A DNA stretch of 45,210 bases from a virus: the IMG/VR virus record IMGVR_UViG_3300050138_000206, positions 1-45,210 of that record; one strand, given 5' to 3'. A program made the translations under genes and the position numbers. Shown one piece after another: positions 7,652 through 26,491 of the stretch (positions are counted from its first letter, which is position 1; each line of letters begins with the position of its first letter). The notes beneath the pieces were generated by a model, which was not told where the DNA came from, made no database searches, and worked only from the letters and a program-made list of their open reading frames with translations.

Positions 7652-9504
7652 CAGCCCAGCCCAGGATAGCGCAGGAAGCTGTTGATAAAGGCCCCGACCA
7701 CACTGCTCGCCGTGTAGCCCGGCGCCGTGAGTTGCACCCGCACGTAGGTGAACCCGTTGACCGGCGCGATTTGCCACGAGCCACTCGTCGCGCCGGCTGA
7801 GGTCAAAAGCACCATCGGCGGCACGGTCGTCGCCCCGCCGTAACTGCCGCTCGACAGCCCTTGGATGTAGGTGATCGTGACACTGGCGCCCGGTGGCAGC
7901 TCGTTGTCGCTCGGCAGCGTGATGCTCACCACGAGCGGCGCGCCCGATGTCGATTGCGAGAGCGTCAGCGACGCGATCGCCGACAGCTTGTAGCCGGCCA
8001 GCATCGTCACTACCGCCGCGGTCGAGGCCGGCGATGTCCCCGCGCCCGCCTTCGTCTGTTGCGCCGTGTAGCTGTACGTGTTCGGATAGACCGCCGAGTT
8101 GTCGAACACCGTACAGTGTCCCGCGGTCACATCGGCGGCCGTAATCGTGTAGATCGCGACGATGACGCCGCCGCGGTTCAGCCTCACCAGATCGCCGGCC
8201 GTTGGCGCGGTGACGAACGTCACCTTCATCCCAACCCAGCCAGGGAACAGCCAGCTGCCCCCAGACGGGCCGGTACCGCCGCCGGTGCCACCGGTGCCCG
8301 CAAACGTCGCCGCGGCCAGTGTCGGCGCGCTGGGCGTCGAGGCGCCCGCGTTCCGGGTGCTCACGATCGTGAGCGCGAGCCCGCGGCCGGTCGCCTTGTC
8401 GTAGGGGACAAACGTCGCATACCGCACGGGATCACCCGACGTCACCGGCAGCTGCAGCGATGTCTTCGTCGGATCCAAGTCGGTCACCCAATTCGCGAAG
8501 TTCTCAACGGTCTCAATCACCGGATCGGTGGCAAAGACCTCGGAGTAGACGCGAATGAACCCGGTGCCGACATCGGCGGTAATTGCGTACGTGACATTGT
8601 TCGCATCGACCGTGGCGACGATCGTCGGCGCATTGCTCAAGGGGAGCGCCGTGACCACGTAGCTCGAGCCGGCGGTCCGCGTCGGGGTGATCACCATCCC
8701 CGGGCCGCCCGTCGTGAGCGTGGGCGACCCGGTGGTCACCGTGTACGGCGTCACGCGGTAGGTGCCCGCGGCTTGCGCCAGGATCACATCGGAGCCCGTC
8801 GATCCGCCCGCATGGATATGCCCGGGCCCGAAGACGCCAGGCGCGGTCTGCGGCTCGACGAAGTACTCCATGTGTCCGAATTGATGGTCGCTGGGCACGG
8901 TATAGGTCGCCGTCAGCGCGACGGTCATCCCCGACGGCATGACGATCGCCACCGGCTGGATGTTCATGTCTGGCGGCGGGGCGACCGGATAGTCGGCCGG
9001 CGCCAGGGCAACCGACGGGTCGATCGCTACGCGCGCGGAGAATGCGGAGTCGGTGGTGCCCGGCCGCACGGCTTTCACTTGGAACGCGCGGCGCACACCG
9101 TCTGGCGGGAGCGACAGCTTCTCGACGAACCACGTGAATGGCGCCACCGGCCGCCGGTCGATCTCAACCCACGACCCATAGACGTTGGTGCCGACGCCCG
9201 TCTCGAGCGCCATCTGGAAAGCGAGCAGCGTGCCCGGGACCGGCTCGGTGTTGAAGATGGCGATCCCGGCGGACCGGGGATTCGGATACAGGGTGACGAA
9301 TGGCACGATATCGTCGGGCGCCGCGCACGTGCCGACGCCGCTCGAGGTCGTGAACGTGACCTGTTGGGGTGTCGTGAACCCGTTCGAGGGCGCTGGCTCC
9401 ACGTGCGCCACGGCGGCGATGTACTGCGTGTTGGGCGTCAACCCCACGAGTCGGAGCTTCGTGGCGCCCGGCGGCAGCTGTTCGATCGGCATGAGCTTCG
9501 CCAC
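7651..9504 (-). CDS. Beta-rich tail-tip/adhesion protein (617 aa)
   Basis: A 617-residue protein of repeated beta-sandwich-like segments. The N-terminus reads like a fibronectin type III strand pair (GATKLRLVGLTPNTQYIAAVA). A Gly-rich hinge (GGTGGGTGPSGGSW) near 400 separates it from further Ig/Fn3-like modules. No enzyme motif is seen. The GTG start overlaps the TAG of the giant tip protein by one base. It lies last in the tail cluster, where siphoviruses keep receptor-binding or accessory tip proteins. Confidence 0.65.
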   Translation of the reverse strand: MAKLMPIEQLPPGATKLRLVGLTPNTQYIAAVAHVEPAPSNGFTTPQQVTFTTSSGVGTCAAPDDIVPFVTLYPNPRSAGIAIFNTEPVPGTLLAFQMALETGVGTNVYGSWVEIDRRPVAPFTWFVEKLSLPPDGVRRAFQVKAVRPGTTDSAFSARVAIDPSVALAPADYPVAPPPDMNIQPVAIVMPSGMTVALTATYTVPSDHQFGHMEYFVEPQTAPGVFGPGHIHAGGSTGSDVILAQAAGTYRVTPYTVTTGSPTLTTGGPGMVITPTRTAGSSYVVTALPLSNAPTIVATVDANNVTYAITADVGTGFIRVYSEVFATDPVIETVENFANWVTDLDPTKTSLQLPVTSGDPVRYATFVPYDKATGRGLALTIVSTRNAGASTPSAPTLAAATFAGTGGTGGGTGPSGGSWLFPGWVGMKVTFVTAPTAGDLVRLNRGGVIVAIYTITAADVTAGHCTVFDNSAVYPNTYSYTAQQTKAGAGTSPASTAAVVTMLAGYKLSAIASLTLSQSTSGAPLVVSITLPSDNELPPGASVTITYIQGLSSGSYGGATTVPPMVLLTSAGATSGSWQIAPVNGFTYVRVQLTAPGYTASSVVGAFINSFLRYPGLG

Positions 9505-12500
9505 TACGCCGCCTGCGTGGCGAGGAAGGTCATGAGCGCACCATACACGTCTTGCGTCGACCCAGCGCCGCCCTTCCGCGCGTAGCTCGCATCGAGGAGA
9601 CAGGGCCGCTGCGCGAGTCCGTCGGGTCGCGCGTAGGGCGTGCCGGGGTTCGGCGGGTTGTTATAACGGCTCGTCTGATCGGAGAACTGAGAGCACCCGA
9701 CGCCCACGCAAGACGACCAGTGGGCTGCCCAGACCGGGAAGATGCCGGTGACGAGCGTATTGACGTATGTCCGGTCACGGAGCGGCACGCCCGTCCCGGC
9801 TGCGACGCCGAGTTGCGTGTCGTCCTTCATGTCCATTTCCGTCGCCGCCCATTTGAGCCCCAACCCTTCGAGTTCCGTGAAAAACGTATCGAGCGCGGCC
9901 TGGTCGTTCGCACTGAAGCCAAGCGCGGCATCCAGCTGGTGCTTCAACCCCACCACTAAGCTCGATGCCGAGATGCCCTCCCCGAGGATCGTGTTCATCC
10001 CGTCCACGACGATGCTCTTCATCAACGACTGCGTCTGGTATTCGAGCGAGTCTTGCGTGACGATGATCTTGACGCCAGGGTCGATCGCGAGCGCGAGCGC
10101 GGCGGCCTCGGCGATCCAGTTCACGCCGATGTAGTTGAACCACGGACAGGCCGCATACCCTGTCGTGCCCGCCGTCGTGTAGGGACTAATGGCGATGACG
10201 AGCTCCGTGATCGGGCCGCCGCTTCCCACCGTGCCGTACTGTGTGACGAGCGCGCCATACGCCCCGGCGATGATCGCCTGCATCGCCTGCGTGGCACTCG
10301 TCTCGTCTTTGATGTACGTCGCATACCATGCCGCGGCCGACGGCACCGCCGAGAAGAGAGCCATCCGCACTTTCGTGCCCTGGGCGACGGCCTTCGTGAT
10401 CTGCGCCTTGGCTGACGTCAGCGTGAAACTGATCGCGGTCGGGCTCGACGCACCCGACATCATGTAGCGTTCGTTGAACGCCACCTCTTCCGTCATGAGG
10501 CCGCCGGCGCCGGCGATCTCCGTCCAGTTATTCCCGTAATTCGCCTGATACGGCGCCTCGCCCCCGTAATTGATATTGACCGAGAGCAGGAACTTCTTGC
10601 TCGAGGCATTCGCGGCAGCCGCCAGGGTTGTGTAACTCGTGCTCGACACCACGGCGGGCAACGTTGCGAGCACCCCACTCACGGTATCGGTCGCCGTCAA
10701 CGTCGACGGGCCCGGTGCGACGGGCGTGATGACGCCAGTCGTCAGGCCGATCGTCATCTTCGTGACGTCGCTCGAGGTGTAGTGGATCGTGCGGCCGGTC
10801 ATGAGTGTGCCGGTCGTATCGTACGGCAGCGCGACGATCGTGGCGGGCGTGCCCATCGCGAGCGCGATGCTCGTAATCGGGCCGACGCCGCCCCCACCCA
10901 GCCCGCCCGTGCCACTACCCGATCCGAGTTGGGCGTTGATCAGGGACGTGAGAGTCGCCACGCTGTAGAGCGACATATGCTGCATCTGCGTGCCGCCCGG
11001 CATATTCGGCCGGCTCTTCGCCGCGTATGTGAGATACGCCTGCGTCCCATAGACGCCGCCCAATCCCTCGAAGAGCTCGGGGAAGTACGGCGGGTAATCG
11101 CTCGACTCGCTCGGTGAGAGCGACCCGATGTTCTGAATTCGGTTCAACTCGAACGAGCCGGCGAGTTGCAGTAGTGTCTTCTGCTTCGTGAACTCATTCG
11201 GGCCCCCGCCCGCGAAGACGACTTGGCATGCGCTGACGAGCGGGAGGAAGCTGTAATAGTCGTAGTGCGTCGTGCGCCCCGTGCGGAGGAGTTCCTCGTG
11301 CAGACCCCCCGCCTGCGACCCTGTCGCATTGATGTCGAACACGATTGCCGCGTCGACCTTCGCCGCGACGTCTGCCAGTTTGGTCGTCCCGTCTGCGGCG
11401 GTCGCCGGCGTCTGCGACCCTTGGAGGTAGAAGGCGCAGAGCGCCATCACGTAGAGCGCCCAGCTCCGCCAGTTGTTCGTGAACCCCGTACCCGGCTCGC
11501 CCGAGACAAAAGGGCCGATGATCGACAGCATCGTCGGATAGATCGACGCGTAGATCCACGCTTCCACCAACGCGCGGTCGGACCATTGCCACCCGGTCGG
11601 GTTGGTGGTCACGCTATACACGCCGGCCGACCAGTTGCCGTGCAGTGCCTCGTCCAGGAGACAGGCGGCCTGCAGGATGCCGTTGATGAGCGTCCCGAAG
11701 ACGAGCGGCCCGTCATTGCCGGCGAAGCCGACGGGGTTGGCGCCCAACGTCACCGACGTATTGATCGTCGCCCAATTCCGCACGATGTCGCACGCAGCGG
11801 GCGCACTCACGTTGTCGATATAGCCGCGCAGTGCCGTGAGCAGCGCGCCCGTCGCATCGTTCCCGACGATCCCCTGAATCACGAGCGCTTGGTTCGTATG
11901 CCCGGCACCGGGGTTGGGCGACTCGTAGTAGTACTCGCCCGGGCACGCGAACGCGTGGAGCGAGCCCGGCATCGCGCCACCCGTGATCGTTCCCGTCGGA
12001 TAGAGCGCCGCCAGCGTTGCCAGCGAATTGCGCCGACTCGCCACCGCCGCCGCGTCCGTCCGGAGCAACGTCAGCGCCGCCGCTTGGGGCGCAGTCCCGG
12101 CCTTGGCCGCGGCGATGCTCGCCGCCAGGTGATCGCCTGCCCAGATCTGCGCGCCGTAGGGTGCACTGCTCGCTGGTACGCCGAGTGTCGCCCCGTTGAT
12201 CACGAGGTTCCGGATCGTGACCCCAGCGCCCGGCGTCACGGTCACCGTCGCCATGCCCACGACCCCGGTGTCGGTGGCCGTCAGCACGCACGTGCCGGGC
12301 GCGACACCCGTGACCGCCCCGCCACTCACGGTCGCAATGCCGTGATTGCTCGTGTCCCACGTGATCGTGCGGCCCGTCATCAGGTTGCCGAGCGTGTCGT
12401 ACGACGCCGCCGTCACCGTCGCGATCGCGCCGGCGACGACGCTGAATGCCGACAGGGAGATGAACACCGTCTCAACCGTAGGCGTCACGCCCTGCAGCTG

Positions 12501-15371
12501 GCCGCCCGAAAGCCAGACCTGAATCGGGGTCGTGGCGTCGGGAGTCACCCACGCGACATCGACCACTCCGTTACCGATGTCCGTCGCGGTCAGCCCGGTA
12601 ATCGAGTCCGGCGACGCCAGGGTCAGTGCGGTCCACCCAACCCAGAGCGACGGCAGCATCCCGCCGCCCGGCCTGACGTGGGCGCGGACGTATACGGTCG
12701 ATCCCATCGAGACTGGGGGCAGCGTGAAGACGCCCGCCCCGAGATCGGTGAGCTCGGCATCGAGCGCGAGGATGCCCGACACACCGGCCGCCGGCGCGCC
12801 GACGATCAGCGTGTTATTCGCGTTCGGCACCGAGTACTCGACCGACAGAATCCCGTTCGGGTAGGCGGCCTGCATCGCCGCGAGGTTCGTGATCGTGACA
12901 TCGACCACGTGCATCGGGTCGTACGCGTCTTGCGCCAAGGTGAAGGTCGGCGCGAGTGACGCGGGCTGCTCGGCCGGTCCCAAGTCTTCAACTACGTACT
13001 CGTAGCCTTCGGGGTGTGGCGTCTTCTTCTTCACCATCACGAGCCGCGGGCCGCCGCGCTGGTTGAGCGCCGGGTTCGGCATCTGATTCGATTGCCAGAT
13101 CACCAGGTCGCCGACGTTGACCTGCGGGCTCGATGCCAGGATGTCGATCGTCCCGATGGTGGCCCCACGGCCATAGCGCTCGAAGATCCGATTCGCGAGC
13201 GCGGAGCCGAGCTGGTACATCGTCTGGACCGACTGCATCGTCGCGGAGCCGTAGCCGCCGGGGATCGTGTAATCTTGCTCCTGCGTGCCGTACGTCGCGA
13301 AGTCCTCGTCGATGAACGGCGCGGTCGACGGTACTTCGACGACGTCGTCCGTCGAGCGCGCGGCATTGAGCGTCGAGTCCCACGCGAGGAAACTCGTGTA
13401 CGCGAACGTCACTTTCTGGACGATCGATTGCTCATCGAGATCGAAGATGACCGGCTCGGAGCCCGGCTTGCCGAAGCGATCGGCATCGGTCCACGTCACC
13501 GTCGGCAGATCGGTCGGGACGTTCCGCACCATGACGAGCTGATACTTCCCGTCTGGTCCGATGCGGAGCGCGACCCCGAGCGGGCCGCCGATCCACTGCT
13601 CGAACATCTTGGACAAGAGCATCGGCTGCGTGACGCGGGCCACGAGCAGGAGATCGGGGCCGAGCTGCGCTCGCACCCCACCGCCCGTGGCGACCGGCGT
13701 CCACGACGCATCGCCGGGTTGCGGCGAGACGACGCCGACCGTCGTGTCATCCCACTGGATGTGCGCATTCACCCAGAGCGTGCAAAGCAAGTCGACCGGG
13801 TGCATCGAGATATGGAGCGGCGTGTCTTGCGAGATCCCAAGCACGACCGCTTTGAGCATCAGATTCGCGCCGGCGGCCGGCATCGGCACGCTGTTCCCGA
13901 ACTGATCGACCGGTGCGATCGGTTGCAGTGTGACCGGGTCGATCCGATAGAAGTCGTGCCAGTCCACGAGAATCGATCGCGCGCCGGGGCTCCCTGTCTG
14001 GATGGCGCTCCCATAGATCAAGACCGGCGTCTTCGTGTAGCGCGAGCCTTGCTCGACCGCGTTGTTGTAGAACTGCGGGTACGCATTCACCGACACACGC
14101 TGCCCGGTCGATGGGATTTCGATCTGCAGGCAGATGCCGCCGATGATCCACCCCAGGCCCCCGAGCGTCGCGTCGACGACGCCACCAGCCGCGGTGGTGC
14201 TCACGCCCTTGGGCACACCGGCCCCGTTCGGGGAGAGGAACGTGCCACCATACCCCGTGGGACTGGGGCCGAACTGAGAGCAAAGGCTCGGGATGAGGGC
14301 GTTGGCCGAGCTAAAGTCCCACGGGATATTGCCACCCGACGCAAAGCGCCACGGTGGCTCACCCGGATTCTTGACCGGCTGTTTCCACCAGCCCGAATCG
14401 ACGCGGATCTTCATCGACTGGGTCGAGGTCCCGAGCGTGAGCACGGTACACGACATGCCGCCGTAGTCCTGCACCATTCCCCAGCCCGGCAACAGCGTCG
14501 CCCAGAGTGGGAGCCAGTACGTCGTGTTCGGTGGCGGCGTGCTCGCCGGGACCGCGAGGATCGACACGTACGCCATCCCGTCGCCGCCGACCACGACGTA
14601 GCCGACCGGATACGTGCCGGCGCTGACGTAGATCCCCGCGGGAACCAGGCCCGGCGGCAGCACGGCCCAATACGTAGCGTTGGGCGGTTGTGTATTGCTG
14701 TTGTTCGCCGTGCAGATGTATTGCAGTCCATCGAGCGGGTTGGTGACGCAGATGCCCGGCGTGTACGCGTGCCCGGACCCTTGCCACGCGGGCGCCGGCA
14801 AGATCGACCCAGAGCCACCGACGGTGGCGACCGGTTGATGACCGCCGATCGGGCCGCCGAGTACGCACGTCCCCATCTCGAGGCTCGGGCTGATCGTTTG
14901 GAACACGGTCATCGATGTCTCGAGCCGTCGAGTCTCGCCGACCGTCCACTCATACACATCGGCGGTGACGAGCTGGAGCCGGTTGATGTAGCCCGCGCAC
15001 ACGACCTCGGGCCACGTCACCCCGCCATCGGAGGAGATCGACAGATATGCGCGGCGCGAGAGAAAGACGTTCCGGCCTTGCGCATCGCCCAAGGCCGCCG
15101 TAATCACGCCGCCCGGTGTGCCCGCGCCGGGGATGATCCCACCGGCCCCGAGCGTCGCGGGCGCATCGATGACACGCACCCGATACACCGCGCACGTCGG
15201 TGTCCCATTGAGCGGGTCGATCTCCGCGCCGTCGGCGTCCGGCTCTTGCGCGATATACGGGTAGCCCGAGCCCGCGACCGACGTAAAGGTGAACGCATCG
15301 ATCGTCCCATCGGGCGCGTCGAGCGTCGACGCGTCGCGGACCCGGAGTTGCCACGCGCGCGCGCTACTCAT
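9504..15371 (-). CDS. Giant tail-tip protein with carbohydrate-binding, Ig-like, alginate-lyase-like and GH10-like modules (1955 aa)
   Basis: The start at 15371 overlaps the upstream stop (ATGA). Residues ~1-850 are the tail-tip part. They include two tandem carbohydrate-binding-like repeats near 197-290 (Tyr...Gly...Tyr...PP-N-x-T-Tyr-Trp, as in ChtBD3/CBM5). An Fn3-like stretch follows to ~950, then a BID_2 Ig-like domain (~960-1050). Next is an alpha-helical toroid resembling PL5 alginate lyases (~1050-1490; TNNWRSW and HYDYYSFLPL), and a second Ig-like domain (~1500-1577). The last is a GH10-like barrel (~1580-1955; FNERYMM, VVGLKHQLD, ATEMDMKD, CLLDASY). In both enzyme-like modules one expected catalytic residue is missing. 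Likely role: binding or degrading surface polysaccharide during adsorption. Module names come from reading motifs. Confidence 0.7.
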   Translation of the reverse strand: MSSARAWQLRVRDASTLDAPDGTIDAFTFTSVAGSGYPYIAQEPDADGAEIDPLNGTPTCAVYRVRVIDAPATLGAGGIIPGAGTPGGVITAALGDAQGRNVFLSRRAYLSISSDGGVTWPEVVCAGYINRLQLVTADVYEWTVGETRRLETSMTVFQTISPSLEMGTCVLGGPIGGHQPVATVGGSGSILPAPAWQGSGHAYTPGICVTNPLDGLQYICTANNSNTQPPNATYWAVLPPGLVPAGIYVSAGTYPVGYVVVGGDGMAYVSILAVPASTPPPNTTYWLPLWATLLPGWGMVQDYGGMSCTVLTLGTSTQSMKIRVDSGWWKQPVKNPGEPPWRFASGGNIPWDFSSANALIPSLCSQFGPSPTGYGGTFLSPNGAGVPKGVSTTAAGGVVDATLGGLGWIIGGICLQIEIPSTGQRVSVNAYPQFYNNAVEQGSRYTKTPVLIYGSAIQTGSPGARSILVDWHDFYRIDPVTLQPIAPVDQFGNSVPMPAAGANLMLKAVVLGISQDTPLHISMHPVDLLCTLWVNAHIQWDDTTVGVVSPQPGDASWTPVATGGGVRAQLGPDLLLVARVTQPMLLSKMFEQWIGGPLGVALRIGPDGKYQLVMVRNVPTDLPTVTWTDADRFGKPGSEPVIFDLDEQSIVQKVTFAYTSFLAWDSTLNAARSTDDVVEVPSTAPFIDEDFATYGTQEQDYTIPGGYGSATMQSVQTMYQLGSALANRIFERYGRGATIGTIDILASSPQVNVGDLVIWQSNQMPNPALNQRGGPRLVMVKKKTPHPEGYEYVVEDLGPAEQPASLAPTFTLAQDAYDPMHVVDVTITNLAAMQAAYPNGILSVEYSVPNANNTLIVGAPAAGVSGILALDAELTDLGAGVFTLPPVSMGSTVYVRAHVRPGGGMLPSLWVGWTALTLASPDSITGLTATDIGNGVVDVAWVTPDATTPIQVWLSGGQLQGVTPTVETVFISLSAFSVVAGAIATVTAASYDTLGNLMTGRTITWDTSNHGIATVSGGAVTGVAPGTCVLTATDTGVVGMATVTVTPGAGVTIRNLVINGATLGVPASSAPYGAQIWAGDHLAASIAAAKAGTAPQAAALTLLRTDAAAVASRRNSLATLAALYPTGTITGGAMPGSLHAFACPGEYYYESPNPGAGHTNQALVIQGIVGNDATGALLTALRGYIDNVSAPAACDIVRNWATINTSVTLGANPVGFAGNDGPLVFGTLINGILQAACLLDEALHGNWSAGVYSVTTNPTGWQWSDRALVEAWIYASIYPTMLSIIGPFVSGEPGTGFTNNWRSWALYVMALCAFYLQGSQTPATAADGTTKLADVAAKVDAAIVFDINATGSQAGGLHEELLRTGRTTHYDYYSFLPLVSACQVVFAGGGPNEFTKQKTLLQLAGSFELNRIQNIGSLSPSESSDYPPYFPELFEGLGGVYGTQAYLTYAAKSRPNMPGGTQMQHMSLYSVATLTSLINAQLGSGSGTGGLGGGGVGPITSIALAMGTPATIVALPYDTTGTLMTGRTIHYTSSDVTKMTIGLTTGVITPVAPGPSTLTATDTVSGVLATLPAVVSSTSYTTLAAAANASSKKFLLSVNINYGGEAPYQANYGNNWTEIAGAGGLMTEEVAFNERYMMSGASSPTAISFTLTSAKAQITKAVAQGTKVRMALFSAVPSAAAWYATYIKDETSATQAMQAIIAGAYGALVTQYGTVGSGGPITELVIAISPYTTAGTTGYAACPWFNYIGVNWIAEAAALALAIDPGVKIIVTQDSLEYQTQSLMKSIVVDGMNTILGEGISASSLVVGLKHQLDAALGFSANDQAALDTFFTELEGLGLKWAATEMDMKDDTQLGVAAGTGVPLRDRTYVNTLVTGIFPVWAAHWSSCVGVGCSQFSDQTSRYNNPPNPGTPYARPDGLAQRPCLLDASYARKGGAGSTQDVYGALMTFLATQAA

Positions 15372-17452
15372 TTCTGCGAGAAGTAGAGTTGGTTCAACCC
15401 GAGATACATCGTCGAGGGTGGCCCGTACTGCGACAAGAGGCCGCCGTAGGTCTGGTTGAACATCAAGAACTGCCAGCCCTTCGAGCTCGTCGCCTGCAGC
15501 ATGTCGAAGCCCGGTACCGGCGTCCACGTCCCCGCGATCGTCGAGTCGTAGGCCAGCACCACGGCGCCGATCGGACCCGTCCAGATCTTGATATAGGCGT
15601 CTTGCGTGGTGCCCGGCGTCGTCTCCTGGCCGTAGATGAACTGGAATTCACGCCAGAGCGAGGCGCCGATATTCAAGCTCCCGTTCGGCTCCTGCGTGAT
15701 GAGCGGGACATAGGGCGGTCCGATATCGAGACGCGGGTAGTTGTTGAACCCATTGACGCCACCGCCCTGCAGGTTGGCGATCACGTACCCCGTGGTGTCG
15801 TCGATCGCCTCGAAGCTGAAGACGTGGTTCTCGGTCGACTGTCCACAGCGGGGCTCCATCAACTTGAGACCCGTGATGAGCGGACCAGGCGCCCCGCTCG
15901 ACCGGAGGACACTGGTGTTGTGCCAGTTGCGTGTTCGCACCTGTCCCTTCCCGAAGAGCACCCCGGCGACGGTGCCCCCGGGCTGGTTGAGCGACACACC
16001 CCATACCACGGGGTTGTACCCACCGTTCAGCTGCGGCGTGTACTTGACTTCGACCCCCGGCCCATCGGGGGCGAGTGCGATGTAGCTCGGGTCGATGCCC
16101 GACGCCGTCTGTCCGGTCGCCGTGTAGTTGTTGAATACCGACGGGATGACCGACCCTTGCGTCCACGTCCCGCCGTCCGTGATGGCAGGCGGTACGGTCA
16201 TATCGCCGGTATTGATGACCGGCGTCATCCCGCTCGGCTCATTGCCGGTGCCGGGCCCAGCACACGTCACAGCGACCGTGCAGGAGAGACTCGTCCCATG
16301 CCGCGTGACCGTGAGTGTCGCCGCGCCCGCAGCCACATCGGTGACGAGCGCGCCGGCGGCGCCGGTCACGCCGGTCGTCGTCGTTGCCTTGCTCGGTGCG
16401 CTCGATACGACGTCGTACGTCGTGCCGGCGCCGCTCGCAGTAACCGGAACGCTGACGACCCATGGCGTCGCACTGCCGCCGCCCGTCGCGGTATCGGCGA
16501 CCGTGACGACGACCGTCCCGACGCCACTACCGCTCACGAGTCCGGAACTATTCACCGAGCCGAATGCGCCGCCGCTGGTCACGGTATAGCTGTACGTCCG
16601 CGTTGCCGGCGTCAGCGTCCCGGTCGCACCGAATTGATCTTCGGTCTCCGGATGCAGTTGCACCGTGCCGCCGTTGACGCAGGTCGGCGAGCCGAAAGTC
16701 GGCTGATACGTGACCGTCGTCGGCGTGTACGTCGTCGACGAGTCCGTGCCGCCGCCGATGAGCGTGTACGTGCCGCTCGGTGTCAGGACCGGACCGCCGG
16801 ATACGCACGACACGAACGTCGACGAGCCGGGCGCATCATCGAAGCGCCAGCCGGCGATGATCTGACCCAACGTCGGGATCGCGTCAGTCGTCGGCAGCGC
16901 GTTCAACAAATAGATCGAGTCAATAATCTGCGCGAGACCGCCCCCTTGGTACCCGCCGTTCACTTCGACTTGTCCGTTGCCGGCAATGACGGGGAACACG
17001 CCGTTGTACGCCGCCACCGAGTAAAACACGCTCGAGCCGCTCGCGAGTCCGTCGACGAGCGTGCCGGTCGCCGTATCGTCGTAGATCGCGTAGCCGTGGT
17101 CGAAGACGGAGTGCCGCATCCAGAAGAGCGCCACGATGTATCGGCCATTCGCGAGCGCTGCGTACGACCCCGGCGCATAGCTCGGCGTCGCGACGTTGCC
17201 GCCGCCCGGAATGTTCATCCCTAAGCTGAACGCACTGCTGCTGCCAGCCGTGAAGCCGATCGCGGTCTTTCTATTCGCGTCCGTGCTGTCGTCGACTTGC
17301 GCGAGCGGATAGCCGAACGTCGGGAAGCCCAGCTTCAGCCCGTCGACTTTGAAGCGGACTCGCCAGATCAGATCGCCGCTGCCGACGCTCTGTAGCGCCG
17401 GAATGTTGACGCACCGAGCGGTCGCGGCGGCCGCCAGACTGAGGAGACCCAT
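15368..17452 (-). CDS. Lectin-like tail protein with LamG-like and Ig-like modules (694 aa)
   Basis: Residues ~1-205 look like a concanavalin A/LamG-type sandwich (DLIWRVRFKVDGLKLG, then GRYIVALFWM, ending IIAGWRFDD). A Ser/Thr/Gly-rich middle of Ig-like strands (~210-410) follows. The C-terminal ~250 residues form a second jelly-roll-like domain (WREFQFIYG, AYIKIWTGPIGAVV, TMYLGLNQLYFSQ), similar in style to polysaccharide-binding or lyase-like lectin folds. GAGG lies six bases before the ATG. It sits between two other Ig-containing tail genes and is probably a virion adhesion protein. No catalytic site identified. Confidence 0.65.
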   Translation of the reverse strand: MGLLSLAAAATARCVNIPALQSVGSGDLIWRVRFKVDGLKLGFPTFGYPLAQVDDSTDANRKTAIGFTAGSSSAFSLGMNIPGGGNVATPSYAPGSYAALANGRYIVALFWMRHSVFDHGYAIYDDTATGTLVDGLASGSSVFYSVAAYNGVFPVIAGNGQVEVNGGYQGGGLAQIIDSIYLLNALPTTDAIPTLGQIIAGWRFDDAPGSSTFVSCVSGGPVLTPSGTYTLIGGGTDSSTTYTPTTVTYQPTFGSPTCVNGGTVQLHPETEDQFGATGTLTPATRTYSYTVTSGGAFGSVNSSGLVSGSGVGTVVVTVADTATGGGSATPWVVSVPVTASGAGTTYDVVSSAPSKATTTTGVTGAAGALVTDVAAGAATLTVTRHGTSLSCTVAVTCAGPGTGNEPSGMTPVINTGDMTVPPAITDGGTWTQGSVIPSVFNNYTATGQTASGIDPSYIALAPDGPGVEVKYTPQLNGGYNPVVWGVSLNQPGGTVAGVLFGKGQVRTRNWHNTSVLRSSGAPGPLITGLKLMEPRCGQSTENHVFSFEAIDDTTGYVIANLQGGGVNGFNNYPRLDIGPPYVPLITQEPNGSLNIGASLWREFQFIYGQETTPGTTQDAYIKIWTGPIGAVVLAYDSTIAGTWTPVPGFDMLQATSSKGWQFLMFNQTYGGLLSQYGPPSTMYLGLNQLYFSQK

Positions 17453-17460
17453 TTATCGCC

Positions 17461-18594
17461 TCACGGGACAATACCGCCGTACTGATCGACGGTCGTAAAG
17501 GTGATGTCGGTCTGTTGGCCCGGTGCAGTCAGCACAACGCTCCCCGACGACGGCACGACGCCCGCACCGACGCTCGGCACCGTGGTTGCTTGCGCCGTCG
17601 CCGTCGCACTCGGAGTGAGTACGACCTTCGCCGTGATGTTCGCCGTCTGGCCACCGGCCTTGGGTGGACCGATCATCGCGGTCCCGTTCCCGTTATCCGT
17701 GACCGGCACATTCGCGTTGTCGCTCGACCACGCGAGCATCCCCGCCGTGTAGGGCAGCACCGTGCCGTCCGTATTCCGCACTACCGCGGTCATCACCTGT
17801 GCCGCGACGCCAGAGACCCCGACTTGCGGGGTGCCGGCGTACGTCGTCGCCGTAAACGCCATCGGGGACGGCGACAGGACCACCGAGCTCGCCATCTGGT
17901 TGACCGTCACGGTGATCGGGATAATGACTTGAGTGCCGCCCGCACTCACGAGAATCGAGGCTTGTCCTGGGGCGATCGAGGTCACATTCCCGTTCTGATC
18001 GACTTGGGCGATCCCCTGATTCGTCGACTGCCAGGTCACCGGGATCACGACGGTGTTCCCGGTCGCATCGGTGACGACCGCCGTGAGCGTCAACGGGTTG
18101 ACACCGGCCAGCATGACGAGTGCTGACGGGGTGACGGTGATCGTGTAGAGCACCCCGAGCTGGTTCTTGTACTGACACAGCATCGGCGCCGCGACGGTGT
18201 TGAGCAGCGAGAGCGAGAGCGTGTACTCGACATTCTTCCGGTCGTACTTGAGGGCGCACTTGGCGCCCGGCTTGAGCCAGCAGGTATACGTCGCGTCGTA
18301 GAGGTCCTGGGTGACGACGACGACCGTGCCACCGGATTCGAGCCACTGCTTGAGCCGGAGCGCGACCGACATCTCGACGGCCGGGATATGCGTGATGTCG
18401 AAACTCGCCGTGTAGTCCGTCCGATAGATGAACTTGAAGGTCTGCCCGGTCGCCATCGCGACCGTCGCCGTGCCAATGTCCTCACCGTCCGGCAGCCAGT
18501 TCTCGAAGATCGGCAGCGTGGTGGGCAACGCAGCTGACCCGACGCCATCGGTAAAGGCGATATACGCATTCGGGTTCGCGAGGACTTGCGTCAT
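17461..18594 (-). CDS. Distal tail-like protein with C-terminal Ig-like domains (377 aa)
   Basis: The first ~150 residues (IAFTDGVGSAALPTTLPIFE, TGQTFKFIYRTDYTASFDI) form a compact beta-rich domain in the position of a distal tail/baseplate-hub protein, directly after the tape measure. A BID_2-like Ig domain follows (~150-235; TPSALVMLAGVNPLTLTAVV, then WQSTNQGIAQVDQNGNVTSI). At least one more Ig-like domain makes up the C-terminus. TAATG couples it to the tape-measure stop. Such Ig domains on virion proteins usually give weak, broad binding to cell-surface glycans. Confidence 0.65.
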   Translation of the reverse strand: MTQVLANPNAYIAFTDGVGSAALPTTLPIFENWLPDGEDIGTATVAMATGQTFKFIYRTDYTASFDITHIPAVEMSVALRLKQWLESGGTVVVVTQDLYDATYTCWLKPGAKCALKYDRKNVEYTLSLSLLNTVAAPMLCQYKNQLGVLYTITVTPSALVMLAGVNPLTLTAVVTDATGNTVVIPVTWQSTNQGIAQVDQNGNVTSIAPGQASILVSAGGTQVIIPITVTVNQMASSVVLSPSPMAFTATTYAGTPQVGVSGVAAQVMTAVVRNTDGTVLPYTAGMLAWSSDNANVPVTDNGNGTAMIGPPKAGGQTANITAKVVLTPSATATAQATTVPSVGAGVVPSSGSVVLTAPGQQTDITFTTVDQYGGIVP

Positions 18595-20681
18595 TAGGAG
18601 AGTCCCGGCACGGTATAGCCGCGCCCGACCGCGTATTGGAGTGCTTTGACGAGCCCGCGCTGCATGCTCGGATCGTTGTAGCCGACGACGTTGATGATCG
18701 GTTGCACGAGGCCCGGGAACTGATTGCCGGCCGCAAATGGGGAACCGGCGGCGGGCTGCAGATAGGTGGCAGCCAGGATACCAGTCGGCGAGAGCGCACC
18801 GGTCGTCCCGCTGCTCCCTGAGCCCGGCGCCGCACCGCTTTGCGAGACCGCACTGAACGCGGCACCAAGCGCCATCAGCGCCACGCCCGCCGCGATCGAC
18901 GCCGGCCCTGAGGTGAACGGGTTGGCGAGGAGTGGCGCGAGTCCCGACATGATGACGCCATACTCAAGCAGGGCTTTGCCGTGCTCCGTAAACATCTGCC
19001 CGAAGCCGGCCATCAACGACTTCCCAAACGATGCCAGCGCTTTCGAGAGGTTGCCCGTCTTGAACGCGCTCTCCATCCCGGCGCTCATGGCATCGCCGAC
19101 CGCCGTCCACGCCTGCTTCGTTAGGTCGACGAACTGCGTCCGCATTGAGACGAGCGTCGCTGCCGTGCGGTCCTTCATCATCTGAGCGAGATCGACGCCC
19201 TTGTCTTTCTTCTCGACCGTCTGGAGCTCCTGCACCATTGCCGCCTTCTTCGCCGCGTCCTGCTCAGTCGCGATCCATTGCTTGAGCGCCGCGATATACG
19301 CGTCGAGGTCGATCGTGTTCTGCGCTGTGGCGTTGCCAGTCCGGTCGAGTGTGGCCAACGCCTGCCCCATCTGCTTGAGCGACGGCGTGAGATCGCGGGA
19401 CGTCGTGTCGGCCAGATGCATCGTCGAGTCTTGCATCCGCTGCAGCGCGACGATCGTGCCCTCGAACTGGTTGCCCTGCATGCCGGTGGCGTCGACACCG
19501 GTATGTGCCTGGGCCTGGCCGAGCGGGCCGGTGTAGGTGGCGATCAGCGGATGCTCTTTCCGGTACGCGGCCGCGAGTGTCGCCGCGTCCGCGGCCGCTT
19601 TGGCTGCCCGTTCGGCCGCGGCGCCCTTCGCCGCCTTGACGTTCTCCGCGGTGATCGCTTGCGTGATATCGAGGATCTTCCCCTCGAGCGCGACTTCCTC
19701 TTTCAGGATATTGACACGGTAGCTGTCCGACTCGCCCTTGGACTTCATCCACGCGAGTGCCCCGGACGGCGCGAACGAGTGGCCTGATTCCTTCTCGACA
19801 TCGCCCAAGATCTTGCTGACTTGCGGAGCGAGGAACGCTTGCGTCTGGCTGGCGTTCGGCGCCGACAGGATCCGGGACCATCCCTCGAGGACCTTCGAGA
19901 GGAGCGACATCGAGCCCGTGAGCATCCGCGCCATGATCCCATCGCCCGTGGTGAACGACGCCATCAGTTCGTCCCACGACTTCTTGACGTCGCCCATCGC
20001 GCCGGTCAGCCCGCTGTGCATCTGCTTCGCCATCCCGTCCGACGCCGCGTGCGCTTTGTCGAGCACGAGCGCCATGGCGCCTGCGAGGTTCCCCGTATCC
20101 TCCATCGCCTTGATGACTTTCGCCTCGTCGGTCGTGAACGTGATCCCCGCGAGCCGAAGCATCCGCATGCCATGCTCGGGGTCTTCGAGTGCCCGGCCTA
20201 GCTTGAACGCCCAGTCTTCGATCGACCCGCCGCGGTTCGATGCGAGGTCGGCCGAGATCTGCATCGCCCGCTGGAACACGTCGCCCTGCACGTCGCGGAA
20301 GATCATGAGCGATGCCGCGGCCTGTTCGATCTGCGGCTTGGAGAAGAGGCTCGTCTTGGAGAGCGACGTCGCCATCGCGTCGACTTGCCGCGCTGTGATG
20401 CCTGACGCATCGCCCGTGGCGCGGATCATCCCGGCGACTTTGAGTTGCGCGTTCTGCGCATCCTCGCCGGCTCTGACCATGTCCTCGAAGAGCCCGACGA
20501 CCTTATCGAGCGCGACGAGTCCGATGATCGTCGACGTCAGCTGCGAGAGCGCGTCGTCGAGCGAGCTGACGCCGGGCTTCGCGTCGTCCTTGGCAGCCCG
20601 CCCGACGTCACGCAGCTTGTCCGCCGCCTCATCGGCACCGGTCGTCTGAACGACGACATCGAGCCCCAGGAAACTCGGCAT
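18594..20681 (-). CDS. Tail tape measure protein
   Basis: A 695-residue, mainly helical protein. It has an N-terminal region typical of short tape measures (SLDDALSQLTSTIIGLVALD, DMVRAGEDAQNAQLKVAGMI) and alternating Ala/Gln/Lys-rich helices. A hydrophobic segment near 575-625 (GVIMSGLAPLLANPF, GVALMALGAAFSAV) may insert into the membrane during DNA entry. Tape-measure length sets tail length; by the usual ~1.5 angstrom per residue, a tail near 100 nm is implied. It follows the frameshifted chaperone genes, as in most siphoviruses. Confidence 0.9.
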   Translation of the reverse strand: MPSFLGLDVVVQTTGADEAADKLRDVGRAAKDDAKPGVSSLDDALSQLTSTIIGLVALDKVVGLFEDMVRAGEDAQNAQLKVAGMIRATGDASGITARQVDAMATSLSKTSLFSKPQIEQAAASLMIFRDVQGDVFQRAMQISADLASNRGGSIEDWAFKLGRALEDPEHGMRMLRLAGITFTTDEAKVIKAMEDTGNLAGAMALVLDKAHAASDGMAKQMHSGLTGAMGDVKKSWDELMASFTTGDGIMARMLTGSMSLLSKVLEGWSRILSAPNASQTQAFLAPQVSKILGDVEKESGHSFAPSGALAWMKSKGESDSYRVNILKEEVALEGKILDITQAITAENVKAAKGAAAERAAKAAADAATLAAAYRKEHPLIATYTGPLGQAQAHTGVDATGMQGNQFEGTIVALQRMQDSTMHLADTTSRDLTPSLKQMGQALATLDRTGNATAQNTIDLDAYIAALKQWIATEQDAAKKAAMVQELQTVEKKDKGVDLAQMMKDRTAATLVSMRTQFVDLTKQAWTAVGDAMSAGMESAFKTGNLSKALASFGKSLMAGFGQMFTEHGKALLEYGVIMSGLAPLLANPFTSGPASIAAGVALMALGAAFSAVSQSGAAPGSGSSGTTGALSPTGILAATYLQPAAGSPFAAGNQFPGLVQPIINVVGYNDPSMQRGLVKALQYAVGRGYTVPGLS

Positions 20682-24173: not shown

Positions 24174-24920
24174 CTATGCCGATCCGTGGCGCCGCTGTCC
24201 AAACAACCGAGCCCACGCCTGCTGTGTCGCCGTAAACGCCGTCGTCATCACGAGCGCCATATAGAACTGGACGGGATTCGTCCCGAGCGTTTGACCTGAA
24301 TAACCGCCGAGAACCAAACAGCCTTCCGTCGTGTTCGCCGATGTGGCGATCGTGCCCGTCACCGCGGCCGTCCCGCCCACCGCGCTCGCCCCCGTCGTGC
24401 CCGTCGCGCTCACGCACGTCGTCACGATCTGCCCCGACGTCCGCGCCACGCCTGAATCGACCACCGTATCGGCGGTCCCGATGTTGCCTTCCCAATGCGG
24501 CGTGGTGTTCACGGCGAGGTAGAGATCCGTCGCATTTCCACTGCACCCGCCCAACACCGCCGCCGACCCGTTGCTTGCGCTTCCGGCGAACGTCGTCGAT
24601 AAGACGGCGAGCATCGATCCCACCGTACCCGCAAATGCCAGTGTCGCCAGCGCCTGCGCCAACGGATCACCGGTCCCTGACCACACGACCGGTTGTCTCG
24701 GCGCCGTCGAGGCGATCGTCGGGAAGAGATTGCTGTGCAGGTCCGTCAGAGATGGCCCAAACCCAGCGCCCCGGAAGTCCGCCCACGCCGTCACGTTCAG
24801 CGTTGACAGCGTTTTCCCCATCTCGCAGTCGACGCACACCTTGACCTTGACGTCGCCGCCGAGCCCCGCCACTAATCGTCTCGGCGTAAACACCGCCGCC
24901 GCCATCATTGCGCCGACCAT
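24174..24920 (-). CDS. Hypothetical structural protein (248 aa)
   Basis: A 248-residue Ala/Thr/Ser/Gly-rich chain with a Cys pair (CVDCEMGKT) near the N-terminus and many short strands (VKVKVCVDCE, SMLAVLSTTFAGSA, PVQFYMALVMTTAF). TAATG couples it to the collagen-like gene. Codon use matches its neighbours. It may be a virion decoration or fibre partner; no function is evident. Confidence 0.55.
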   Translation of the reverse strand: MVGAMMAAAVFTPRRLVAGLGGDVKVKVCVDCEMGKTLSTLNVTAWADFRGAGFGPSLTDLHSNLFPTIASTAPRQPVVWSGTGDPLAQALATLAFAGTVGSMLAVLSTTFAGSASNGSAAVLGGCSGNATDLYLAVNTTPHWEGNIGTADTVVDSGVARTSGQIVTTCVSATGTTGASAVGGTAAVTGTIATSANTTEGCLVLGGYSGQTLGTNPVQFYMALVMTTAFTATQQAWARLFGQRRHGSA

Positions 24921-26491
24921 TAGTGGATCTGCCAGACGGTGCCGTCATCGACGAACAGCGCGGACATGCCGGGGGCGAGCGTGATCTGCAGCGTCGACCC
25001 CGAGTCGTTGATGGTGAGGCTAAAGGTCGACGCGAGCAGGTTGGTAATGCTCACGTTCTGCCCCAGAAAGTGCGTCGGCAGCTGGACGATCTCTGTCGCC
25101 GTCGTATTCGTGAGGTACCAGAACGCGCCGAGACACTGCGCGCTCGTCAGCGTCAGCGTGGCCGCGATGGCCTGCTTGAAGATCTGCGCGAGCCCGGCCG
25201 CACTCGCCTGCACGGGCGGGGGCGTCGTGATCTGATCGTACTCGAGCCCCGCATCTTCGCTGGACAGGAACACCGTCATCCCACTGCCTGTCCCGCTTGC
25301 GCCCTGCGCGCCCTGCGGCCCCGGAGGGCCGGGGACATGCATCGGCTCGTCGGGCAACTCGGGGTCGAGGATCATGTGCACCGCGGTCGCCGGACCCGTC
25401 GCCCCCTGCGCGCCCGGCGTGCCCGGCGGCCCGGGCACATGTAGTGGCTCGTCCGGTAACTCGGGCTCCATCACCATGCTGACGGCTGGCGCGGCGGCGA
25501 TGCCTGCTGTGCCTTGTGCGCCCTGCGGCCCTACCGGTCCTGGCACATGCAACGGCTCGTCCGGCTGTTCCGGCTCCCACACCATGCTGACGGCAGGCAC
25601 CGCCGCCACGCCCTGCGCGCCTTGCGCGCCAGCCGGGCCGGGCGGGCCGGGCACATGCAGCGGTTCGTCTGGTAGTTCGGGCTCCAGCACCATACTGACG
25701 CCCGCCGAACCGCTCACACCCTGACCGCCAGGTGCACCGGGCGCTCCGGGGATCATCCACGGGTCGTCGGGCACTTCCGGTTCGATCGCGTGAACGGGAC
25801 CGGCTGTGCCTGCGACGCCCGCCGTCCCCTGTGGGCCCGGCGGCCCCGGTACGTGCAGCGGCTCGTCCGGTAGTTCAGGCTCCAGCATCATGCTGACGCC
25901 AGTCGCGCCTGCAGTTCCCTGCGCGCCAGCAGCGCCCGGCAAGCCAGGCACCATCATCGGATCGTCAGGGACGTCAGGTTCGATCGCGTGCACCGGGCCC
26001 GCGATCCCCGCCACGCCCGGCGTTCCAGGCACTCCCGGTGGCCCCGGTATCTGCATCGGGTCGTCAGGCACGTCAGCGTCCACCACGATCACCTGACCCG
26101 CCTTGCCTACTGCGCCCGCCACGCCTGGTGGCCCCGGCACCTGCATCGGGTCGTCGGGCGTGTCGGCGTCCAGCAGCACCGTCACACCGGCCGGCCCCGC
26201 CGCGCCCTGTGCCCCTTGCGCGCCCGGGAGTCCTGGCGGCCCGGGAATCTGCATCGGCTCGTCGGGCACATCGGCGTCGAGCACCACTGTCACACCGGCA
26301 ACGCCTTGTGAGCCCTTTGCGCCAGCAGGGCCCGGGACCATCATCGGGTCGTCGGGCACCTCCGGATCGATGACGTGAACAGGACCGGGCGCACCGGCCT
26401 TGCCAGCCACGCCCGGGCCACCAGGCACGCCCTGATTCACCTCGACGACTGGCGCTTGGCCAGGACCGGTGACAATCACGGGGCCGGTCAC
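24920..26491 (-). CDS. Collagen-like fibre protein with 11 interrupted repeats (523 aa)
   Basis: Residues ~30-390 hold about 11 units. Each starts with a ~16-residue acidic motif (for example MVLEPELPDEPLHVPG) and continues with 5-6 collagen Gly-X-Y triplets such as GPPGPQGAQG. The C-terminal ~110 residues form a globular, mostly beta domain (VFLSSEDAGLEYDQI ... GMSALFVDDGTVWQIH). Such a head often trimerises collagen-like stalks. The product is probably a trimeric, flexible virion fibre or capsid decoration. It lies among connector genes rather than the tail-tip cluster. The repeats could vary in number by recombination. Confidence 0.85.
   Translation of the reverse strand: MTGPVIVTGPGQAPVVEVNQGVPGGPGVAGKAGAPGPVHVIDPEVPDDPMMVPGPAGAKGSQGVAGVTVVLDADVPDEPMQIPGPPGLPGAQGAQGAAGPAGVTVLLDADTPDDPMQVPGPPGVAGAVGKAGQVIVVDADVPDDPMQIPGPPGVPGTPGVAGIAGPVHAIEPDVPDDPMMVPGLPGAAGAQGTAGATGVSMMLEPELPDEPLHVPGPPGPQGTAGVAGTAGPVHAIEPEVPDDPWMIPGAPGAPGGQGVSGSAGVSMVLEPELPDEPLHVPGPPGPAGAQGAQGVAAVPAVSMVWEPEQPDEPLHVPGPVGPQGAQGTAGIAAAPAVSMVMEPELPDEPLHVPGPPGTPGAQGATGPATAVHMILDPELPDEPMHVPGPPGPQGAQGASGTGSGMTVFLSSEDAGLEYDQITTPPPVQASAAGLAQIFKQAIAATLTLTSAQCLGAFWYLTNTTATEIVQLPTHFLGQNVSITNLLASTFSLTINDSGSTLQITLAPGMSALFVDDGTVWQIH

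Follow-up and report, generated by a model that had tools for sequence, protein, structure and literature searches.

The stretch of DNA analysed here (the window) is the whole of IMG/VR record IMGVR_UViG_3300050138_000206, 45,210 bases long with a GC content of ~66%. Its genes encode, among others, a tape measure protein and an integrase, together with a terminase, a portal, a major head protein and a head protease; the phage is temperate and tailed, most likely a siphovirus. On the minus strand, the tape measure gene is followed by genes for a 377-aa Big_2 protein and a 694-aa tail-module protein, and then by the gene for a 1,955-aa protein (P0001), whose ATG overlaps the stop codon of the 694-aa gene (ATGA). 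An earlier reading of the letters alone (hereafter the sequence-only reading) had described a giant protein at this place, and the gene is indeed intact: the frame is uninterrupted, its GC3 is of the coding type in all domains (0.84-0.92), and its codon-position GC of ~0.6/0.5/0.85 in every domain resembles that of the portal and head genes. Long plus-strand ORFs lie opposite P0001 and are probably by-products of the high GC. By eye, the 694-aa neighbour contains concanavalin-type jelly-roll-like and Ig-like stretches.

From its N-terminus to its C-terminus, P0001 consists of an N-terminal region, a first Ig-like domain, a PL5-like toroid, a second Ig-like domain and a GH10-like barrel (Table 1). 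Counted from the tape measure gene, it is the third gene to follow, which is the position of a tail hub or Tal protein. Gene order is what supports a tail-tip identity, which is therefore presumed throughout. For the tail-tip region proposed in the sequence-only reading, the position after the tape measure gene holds, while homology of aa 1-930 to hubs was not found: comparison of this part with Pfam, PHROGs, NCBIfam and three loci (L313, L314 and L005) gave no match. The only homology within it is a short segment with two motifs that, by eye, we label CBM-like and that appears to be inserted in the presumed hub; nothing in this segment exceeded a Pfam cut-off, and over ~97 aa it is 42% identical to a tail-fibre-like ORF of a Pseudomonadota genome (L229). 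The two Ig-like domains are paralogues (45% identical, E 2e-13), and one stands ahead of each enzyme-like domain, just as had been read from the sequence.

Table 1 Features of the tail gene module and of the 1,955-aa protein (positions are those of the window)
Feature	Residues (aa)	Position	Strand	Evidence or remark
Tape measure protein		18594..20681	-	phrog_27166, E 2e-22
377-aa Big_2 protein		17461..18594	-	Pfam Big_2, 27.6 bits
694-aa tail-module protein		15368..17452	-	no match to family models (Pfam, PHROGs and others)
CDS, 1,955-aa tail protein P0001		9504..15371	-	uninterrupted ORF
N-terminal region, presumed tail-tip/hub	1-925	12597..15371	-	gene order; no family match
CBM-like segment, two motifs	~190-290	14502..14804	-	CBM5/12-like by eye
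Ig-like domain 1 (Big_1/Big_2-like)	964-1047	12231..12482	-	Pfam 18-19 bits, below cut-off
PL5/PF05426 alginate-lyase-like toroid	1059-1485	10917..12197	-	PF05426 above Pfam cut-off
NNWRSW	1299-1304	11460..11477	-	N1300 = AlgL N201; W1301 replaces catalytic H202; W1304 = W205
RTGRTTHYDYY	1363-1373	11253..11285	-	R1363 = AlgL R249; Y1370 = catalytic Y256; Y1373 = Y259
Ig-like domain 2	1497-1575	10647..10883	-	paralogous to Ig-like domain 1
GH10-like barrel	1580-1955	9507..10634	-	GH10 profile, hhalign, TIM-barrel model
PITELVIAIS, beta-strand 4 region	1720-1729	10185..10214	-	methods differ on the acid/base: E1723 or S1729
TEMD	1844-1847	9831..9842	-	GH10 nucleophile E1845 and D1847 retained
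617-aa protein, directly downstream of P0001		7651..9504	-	no match to family models (Pfam, PHROGs and others)

The alginate-lyase-like toroid suggested by the sequence-only reading was recovered by profile searches. PF05426 (Alginate_lyase) scored 25.4 bits on the whole protein and 26.9 bits on the domain alone, with a cut-off of 22.2, and a profile made without the window sequence gave the toroid 21.5 bits, as against at most 3.1 for shuffles. The PF05426 match spans model positions 129-245 of 275, which is the active-site half only. An AlphaFold model of the toroid was of low confidence (pLDDT 50, pTM 0.44). Its top PDB matches (Z up to 12.7) were PL5 enzymes, with PL17 and further alginate lyases ranking next, and these count as supporting evidence at most, because a PL5 alignment had served as input to the model. 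A BFVD search with this low-confidence model returned no meaningful match.

To locate the active site, we mapped the residues of P. aeruginosa AlgL onto the toroid and onto a sample of 76 cellular PF05426 domains, most of which come from genomes of Pseudomonadota and Bacteroidota. Seven of the eight mapped positions are retained in the toroid (N201, W205, the Glu of the EL motif, R249, a second Arg, Y256 and Y259), all of them aligned at top posterior, and the sole change is that of His202 to Trp1301. The NNW that had been picked out in place of the Asn-His pair (aa 1299-1301) lines up with NNH in PL5 enzymes, and the Tyr context described as kept (HYDYYSFLPL) belongs to a stretch in which R1363, Y1370 and Y1373 are all retained. 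The toroid site is thus altered, as proposed, through the exchange of His for Trp, but less so overall than the proposal implied, with Asn, Arg, both Tyr and Trp205 in place. Of the PL5 catalytic set itself, only the His is missing.

The known PL5 alginate lyases and multifunctional PL5 lyases AlgL (4OZV), A1-III (1HV6), PanPL (7WXJ) and Smlt1473 (7FHU) share with the phage toroid the equivalents of Asn201, Trp205, Arg249, Tyr256 and Tyr259. The phage toroid differs from them in having Trp for His202 and an insertion between the two motifs, in that no PL5-like N-terminal half, lid loop included, can be made out, and in being fused to a tail protein. At the His202 position, the cellular sample has His in 68 of the 76 domains, Trp in 4, Arg in 2, and Leu and Val in 1 each, counts that are not population frequencies because the sample consists of the better-scoring matches. 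Judged from these alignments, Trp at this position is rare, not unique.

Three of the four cellular Trp cases (L265, L266 and L267) form a subfamily of their own, whose active site is altered. They read NNWQSHR, in which the His and Trp of NNHxxW have apparently been exchanged; their R249 position is Gln or Glu, and the catalytic Tyr is retained. The phage toroid resembles them in its Trp at the His202 position, but it has a second Trp at the Trp205 position, where the subfamily has His, and it retains the Arg249 that the subfamily lacks. We therefore rejected membership of the toroid in this subfamily, and a viral scan using the subfamily found nothing. Two further cellular domains, L264 (NNLYYW) and L279 (SNVSTW), lack the catalytic His and have the Asn, Arg and Tyr. 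The cellular search also turned up a Rhodocyclales MAG of 4 Mb (G026, the genome of L133) with seven PF05426 matches, which is unusually many.

His1369, beside the catalytic Tyr, was considered as a stand-in for the lost His but is unsupported as a novelty: a His occurs there in Smlt1473 and other PL5s too, in addition to the His of NNH. A PL8-like arrangement with His1358 was set aside, as PL5 aligns gap-free across this stretch.

Published work on the missing residue allows a prediction for the toroid. In AlgL, H202 has been assigned to neutralising the anionic intermediate, and, against a kcat of about 16 per s for AlgL, the H202A, R249A and Y256F mutants have no detectable activity in vitro (PMC8829089); in vivo, H202A behaves like wild type, for which the authors suggest residual activity (PMC8829089). 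In Smlt1473, H168 (equivalent to AlgL H202) hydrogen-bonds the +1 sugar, and Tyr222 serves as both base and acid (PMC8511899). His-to-Ala mutants of A1-III (4F10) and PanPL (7WXP) are, according to their PDB titles, deposited with bound substrate. From the behaviour of AlgL H202A and the role of Smlt1473 H168, we infer that the His-to-Trp toroid should still hold a uronate chain, with slow cleavage or none. The AlgL mutant thus gives the prediction a backing in the literature; the Trp1301 side chain could, instead, block the cleft.

The second enzyme-like domain, read earlier as a GH10-like barrel, was likewise upheld by profile comparison, even though Pfam GH10 (PF00331) scored it below the cut-off of 22.1 (14.9 bits on the whole protein, 19.7 bits on the domain alone). 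A profile of 40 GH10 sequences gave the barrel 48.4 bits, compared with 1.5 for the best shuffle, and hhalign against GH10 returned a probability of 97% with an E value of 1.3e-10. With phmmer, cellular GH10s were matched at E values of about 1e-5 to 1e-6, and some of these matches reach the C-terminal RPDGLxQR motif. The structural model, built on a GH10 alignment, is a (beta/alpha)8 TIM barrel of moderate confidence (pTM 0.76, pLDDT 65), with GH10 PDB entries matching at Z up to 29.5. On these comparisons, the homology of the barrel to GH10 is firm.

The two catalytic carboxylates of GH10 fare differently in the barrel. In every alignment that reaches TEMD, E1845 falls on the GH10 nucleophile of beta-strand 7, in agreement with the nucleophile context that the sequence-only reading regarded as kept. 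The acid/base position, in contrast, depends on the method. Four MAFFT modes with all GH10s, and hhalign with realignment, place it at E1723 of PITE; some small alignments, phmmer against 3W25 and hhalign without realignment place it at S1729; and one hhalign run places it at I1726. The E1723 register needs fewer gaps, but it makes strand 4 SGGPIT, a poor strand, while the S1729 register offers a better one (ITELVIAIS). The barrel model has a pLDDT of about 53-61 near strand 4, and its input alignment already favoured E1723. The loss of the acid/base Glu at VIAIS (aa 1725-1729), as proposed earlier, is therefore not established, and most of the deeper alignments choose E1723, six residues upstream.

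Beyond the carboxylates, and whichever register is chosen, the cleft itself has changed. All eight of the near-invariant GH10 cleft residues examined (K47, H80, W84, N126, N169, Q203, H205 and W273, near-invariance being judged among 40 GH10s) are replaced in the barrel. In the region of the conserved -1 subsite, the replacements are K47 to M, H80 to A, W84 to A, Q203 to K, H205 to Q and W273 to S; a Thr stands at a conserved GH10 Asn (given as N126 or N169), and the WDVVN motif with its Asn is missing from the barrel in any register. Conservation of 40/40 at the acid/base and nucleophile columns is by design, because the genome-derived GH10s were chosen partly by their NE and TE motifs; the other columns are unaffected by this selection. 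Compared with GH10 xylanases such as XynAF1 (6JDT), the phage domain is homologous over most of the barrel and has the nucleophile Glu and the next Asp in common with them, and it differs in the absent WDVVN, the replaced cleft and a score under the Pfam cut-off. Normal xylanase activity of the barrel thus appears unlikely. The altered barrel site proposed earlier was right about the retained nucleophile and understated the rest. The more general claim, of two enzyme folds with altered sites, is supported as regards the folds; as for the sites, that of the toroid is otherwise intact and that of the barrel is not.

We favour the reading that P0001 is a tail-tip or adhesion protein with enzyme-derived modules for glycan engagement, which would mainly bind and might retain slow lyase activity; we give it about an even chance of being right. 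Its C-terminal half would display the PL5-type toroid and the GH10-type barrel on Ig-like spacers, and the modules would mainly bind chains of host-surface polysaccharide or exopolysaccharide during adsorption. The toroid retains the charge-neutralising Asn and Arg and the catalytic and substrate-binding Tyr, with Trp where His contacts the +1 sugar; its cleft should therefore still bind a uronate polymer, while lyase turnover should be slow or absent. The barrel, having lost the xylan -1 subsite, would most likely be a binding or structural module, or else take a different glycan as substrate. Since one key residue is lost in the toroid and most of the sugar site in the barrel, gripping host-surface sugars is probably the main role of the pair. 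The position in the tail module and the CBM-like segment matching a tail-fibre-like ORF both support binding; retention of the toroid's catalytic Tyr and Arg speaks against it, as does the possible presence of both GH10 carboxylates (E1723 and E1845), which would fit a hydrolase acting on another substrate. Between the alternatives left by the sequence-only reading, namely that the enzymes use other residues or have become glycan-binding modules, we favour the latter. A bolder form of the binding reading, which we advance only tentatively, is that two unrelated folds for degrading polysaccharides have both become glycan receptors in a single protein of the phage tail, the toroid being a natural substrate trap made by a single His-to-Trp change and the barrel an emptied xylan site. 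If so, the tail engages host exopolysaccharide without cleavage or only slowly.

The strongest rival holds that toroid and barrel are both active as depolymerases whose chemistry or specificity has shifted, the toroid working by syn elimination with Tyr1370 and Arg1363 alone and the barrel using E1723 and E1845 on a non-xylan exopolysaccharide. Depolymerases are frequent on phage tails (PMC5380687), and the PL5 Tyr acts as both base and acid for mannuronate (PMC8618178, PMC8511899), which together with the apparent residual activity of AlgL H202A in vivo (PMC8829089) would suit such a toroid; the deep MAFFT alignments and the realign mode of hhalign would supply the barrel with its acid/base. 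Set against this, AlgL H202A and H192A lose most of their activity (PMC8829089), the cleft residues are replaced at every position examined, and the register that provides E1723 comes at the price of the poor strand 4, in a part where the model is of low confidence. We consider two active enzymes unlikely. Still less probable, in our estimate, is a slow lyase next to a barrel that is merely a structural or binding remnant: it would accommodate the single change in the toroid beside the dismantled cleft of the barrel, but AlgL needs His202 for measurable activity in vitro (PMC8829089). That the modules are mere passengers in decay, under no selection for a function, seems very improbable, for although conserved barrel residues are lost and, close relatives not having been found, constraint is not visible, the 1,955-aa frame is intact with the codon-position composition of essential structural genes, and retention is position-specific for Asn, Arg, Tyr, Tyr and Trp in the toroid and for TEMD in the barrel.

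Tails that bear enzymes are a known kind. A review reports alginate lyases of phages and a xylanase of a Caulobacter phage (PMC5380687), and two IMG/VR phage contigs, L313 (4283-7960, 1,226 aa) and L314 (4769-7906, 1,046 aa), hold long hub-like ORFs with a GH10 at the C-terminus, as in P0001. Because these carry an intact GH10, with WDVVNEP and HISEL, the fusion of GH10 to a tail protein has precedents, and their GH10 domains are possibly active enzymes on phage tail tips. They differ from P0001 in that no lyase-like module was seen, and no similarity to the N-terminal region of P0001 was detected. An Ig-like domain accompanies GH10, again as in P0001, in the solved structure of a termite gut GH10 (4HU8).

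What is new is the combination of a PL5-type toroid with a GH10-type barrel in one tail protein, together with the states of both active sites. Searches among phages, plasmids and IMG/VR gave no close relative of this arrangement. IMG/VR was scanned for peptide patterns taken from the lyase, barrel, hub and portal parts, and genomes for the lyase part, and none was found; nor did tblastn find one with the whole protein against phages and with the lyase part against plasmids. These searches mostly detect close relatives only. A lyase-domain search of 398 Pseudomonadota genomes gave noise only. The protein bears on the question of how often tail enzyme folds bind rather than cut, especially in temperate phages, as its two folds are unrelated and their active sites stand at different stages of change.

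The best handle on related IMG/VR viruses is a Sak4/RecA-like ATPase gene at 1678-2772 (33 loci, identity up to 60%); none of the 23 viral records reached through this recombinase gene shares the tail protein. Upstream of the tape measure gene lies a 523-aa ORF (24920-26491) that matches phrog_5073 and phrog_1806 (collagen-like and other tail fibre families) and is possibly a second adhesin.
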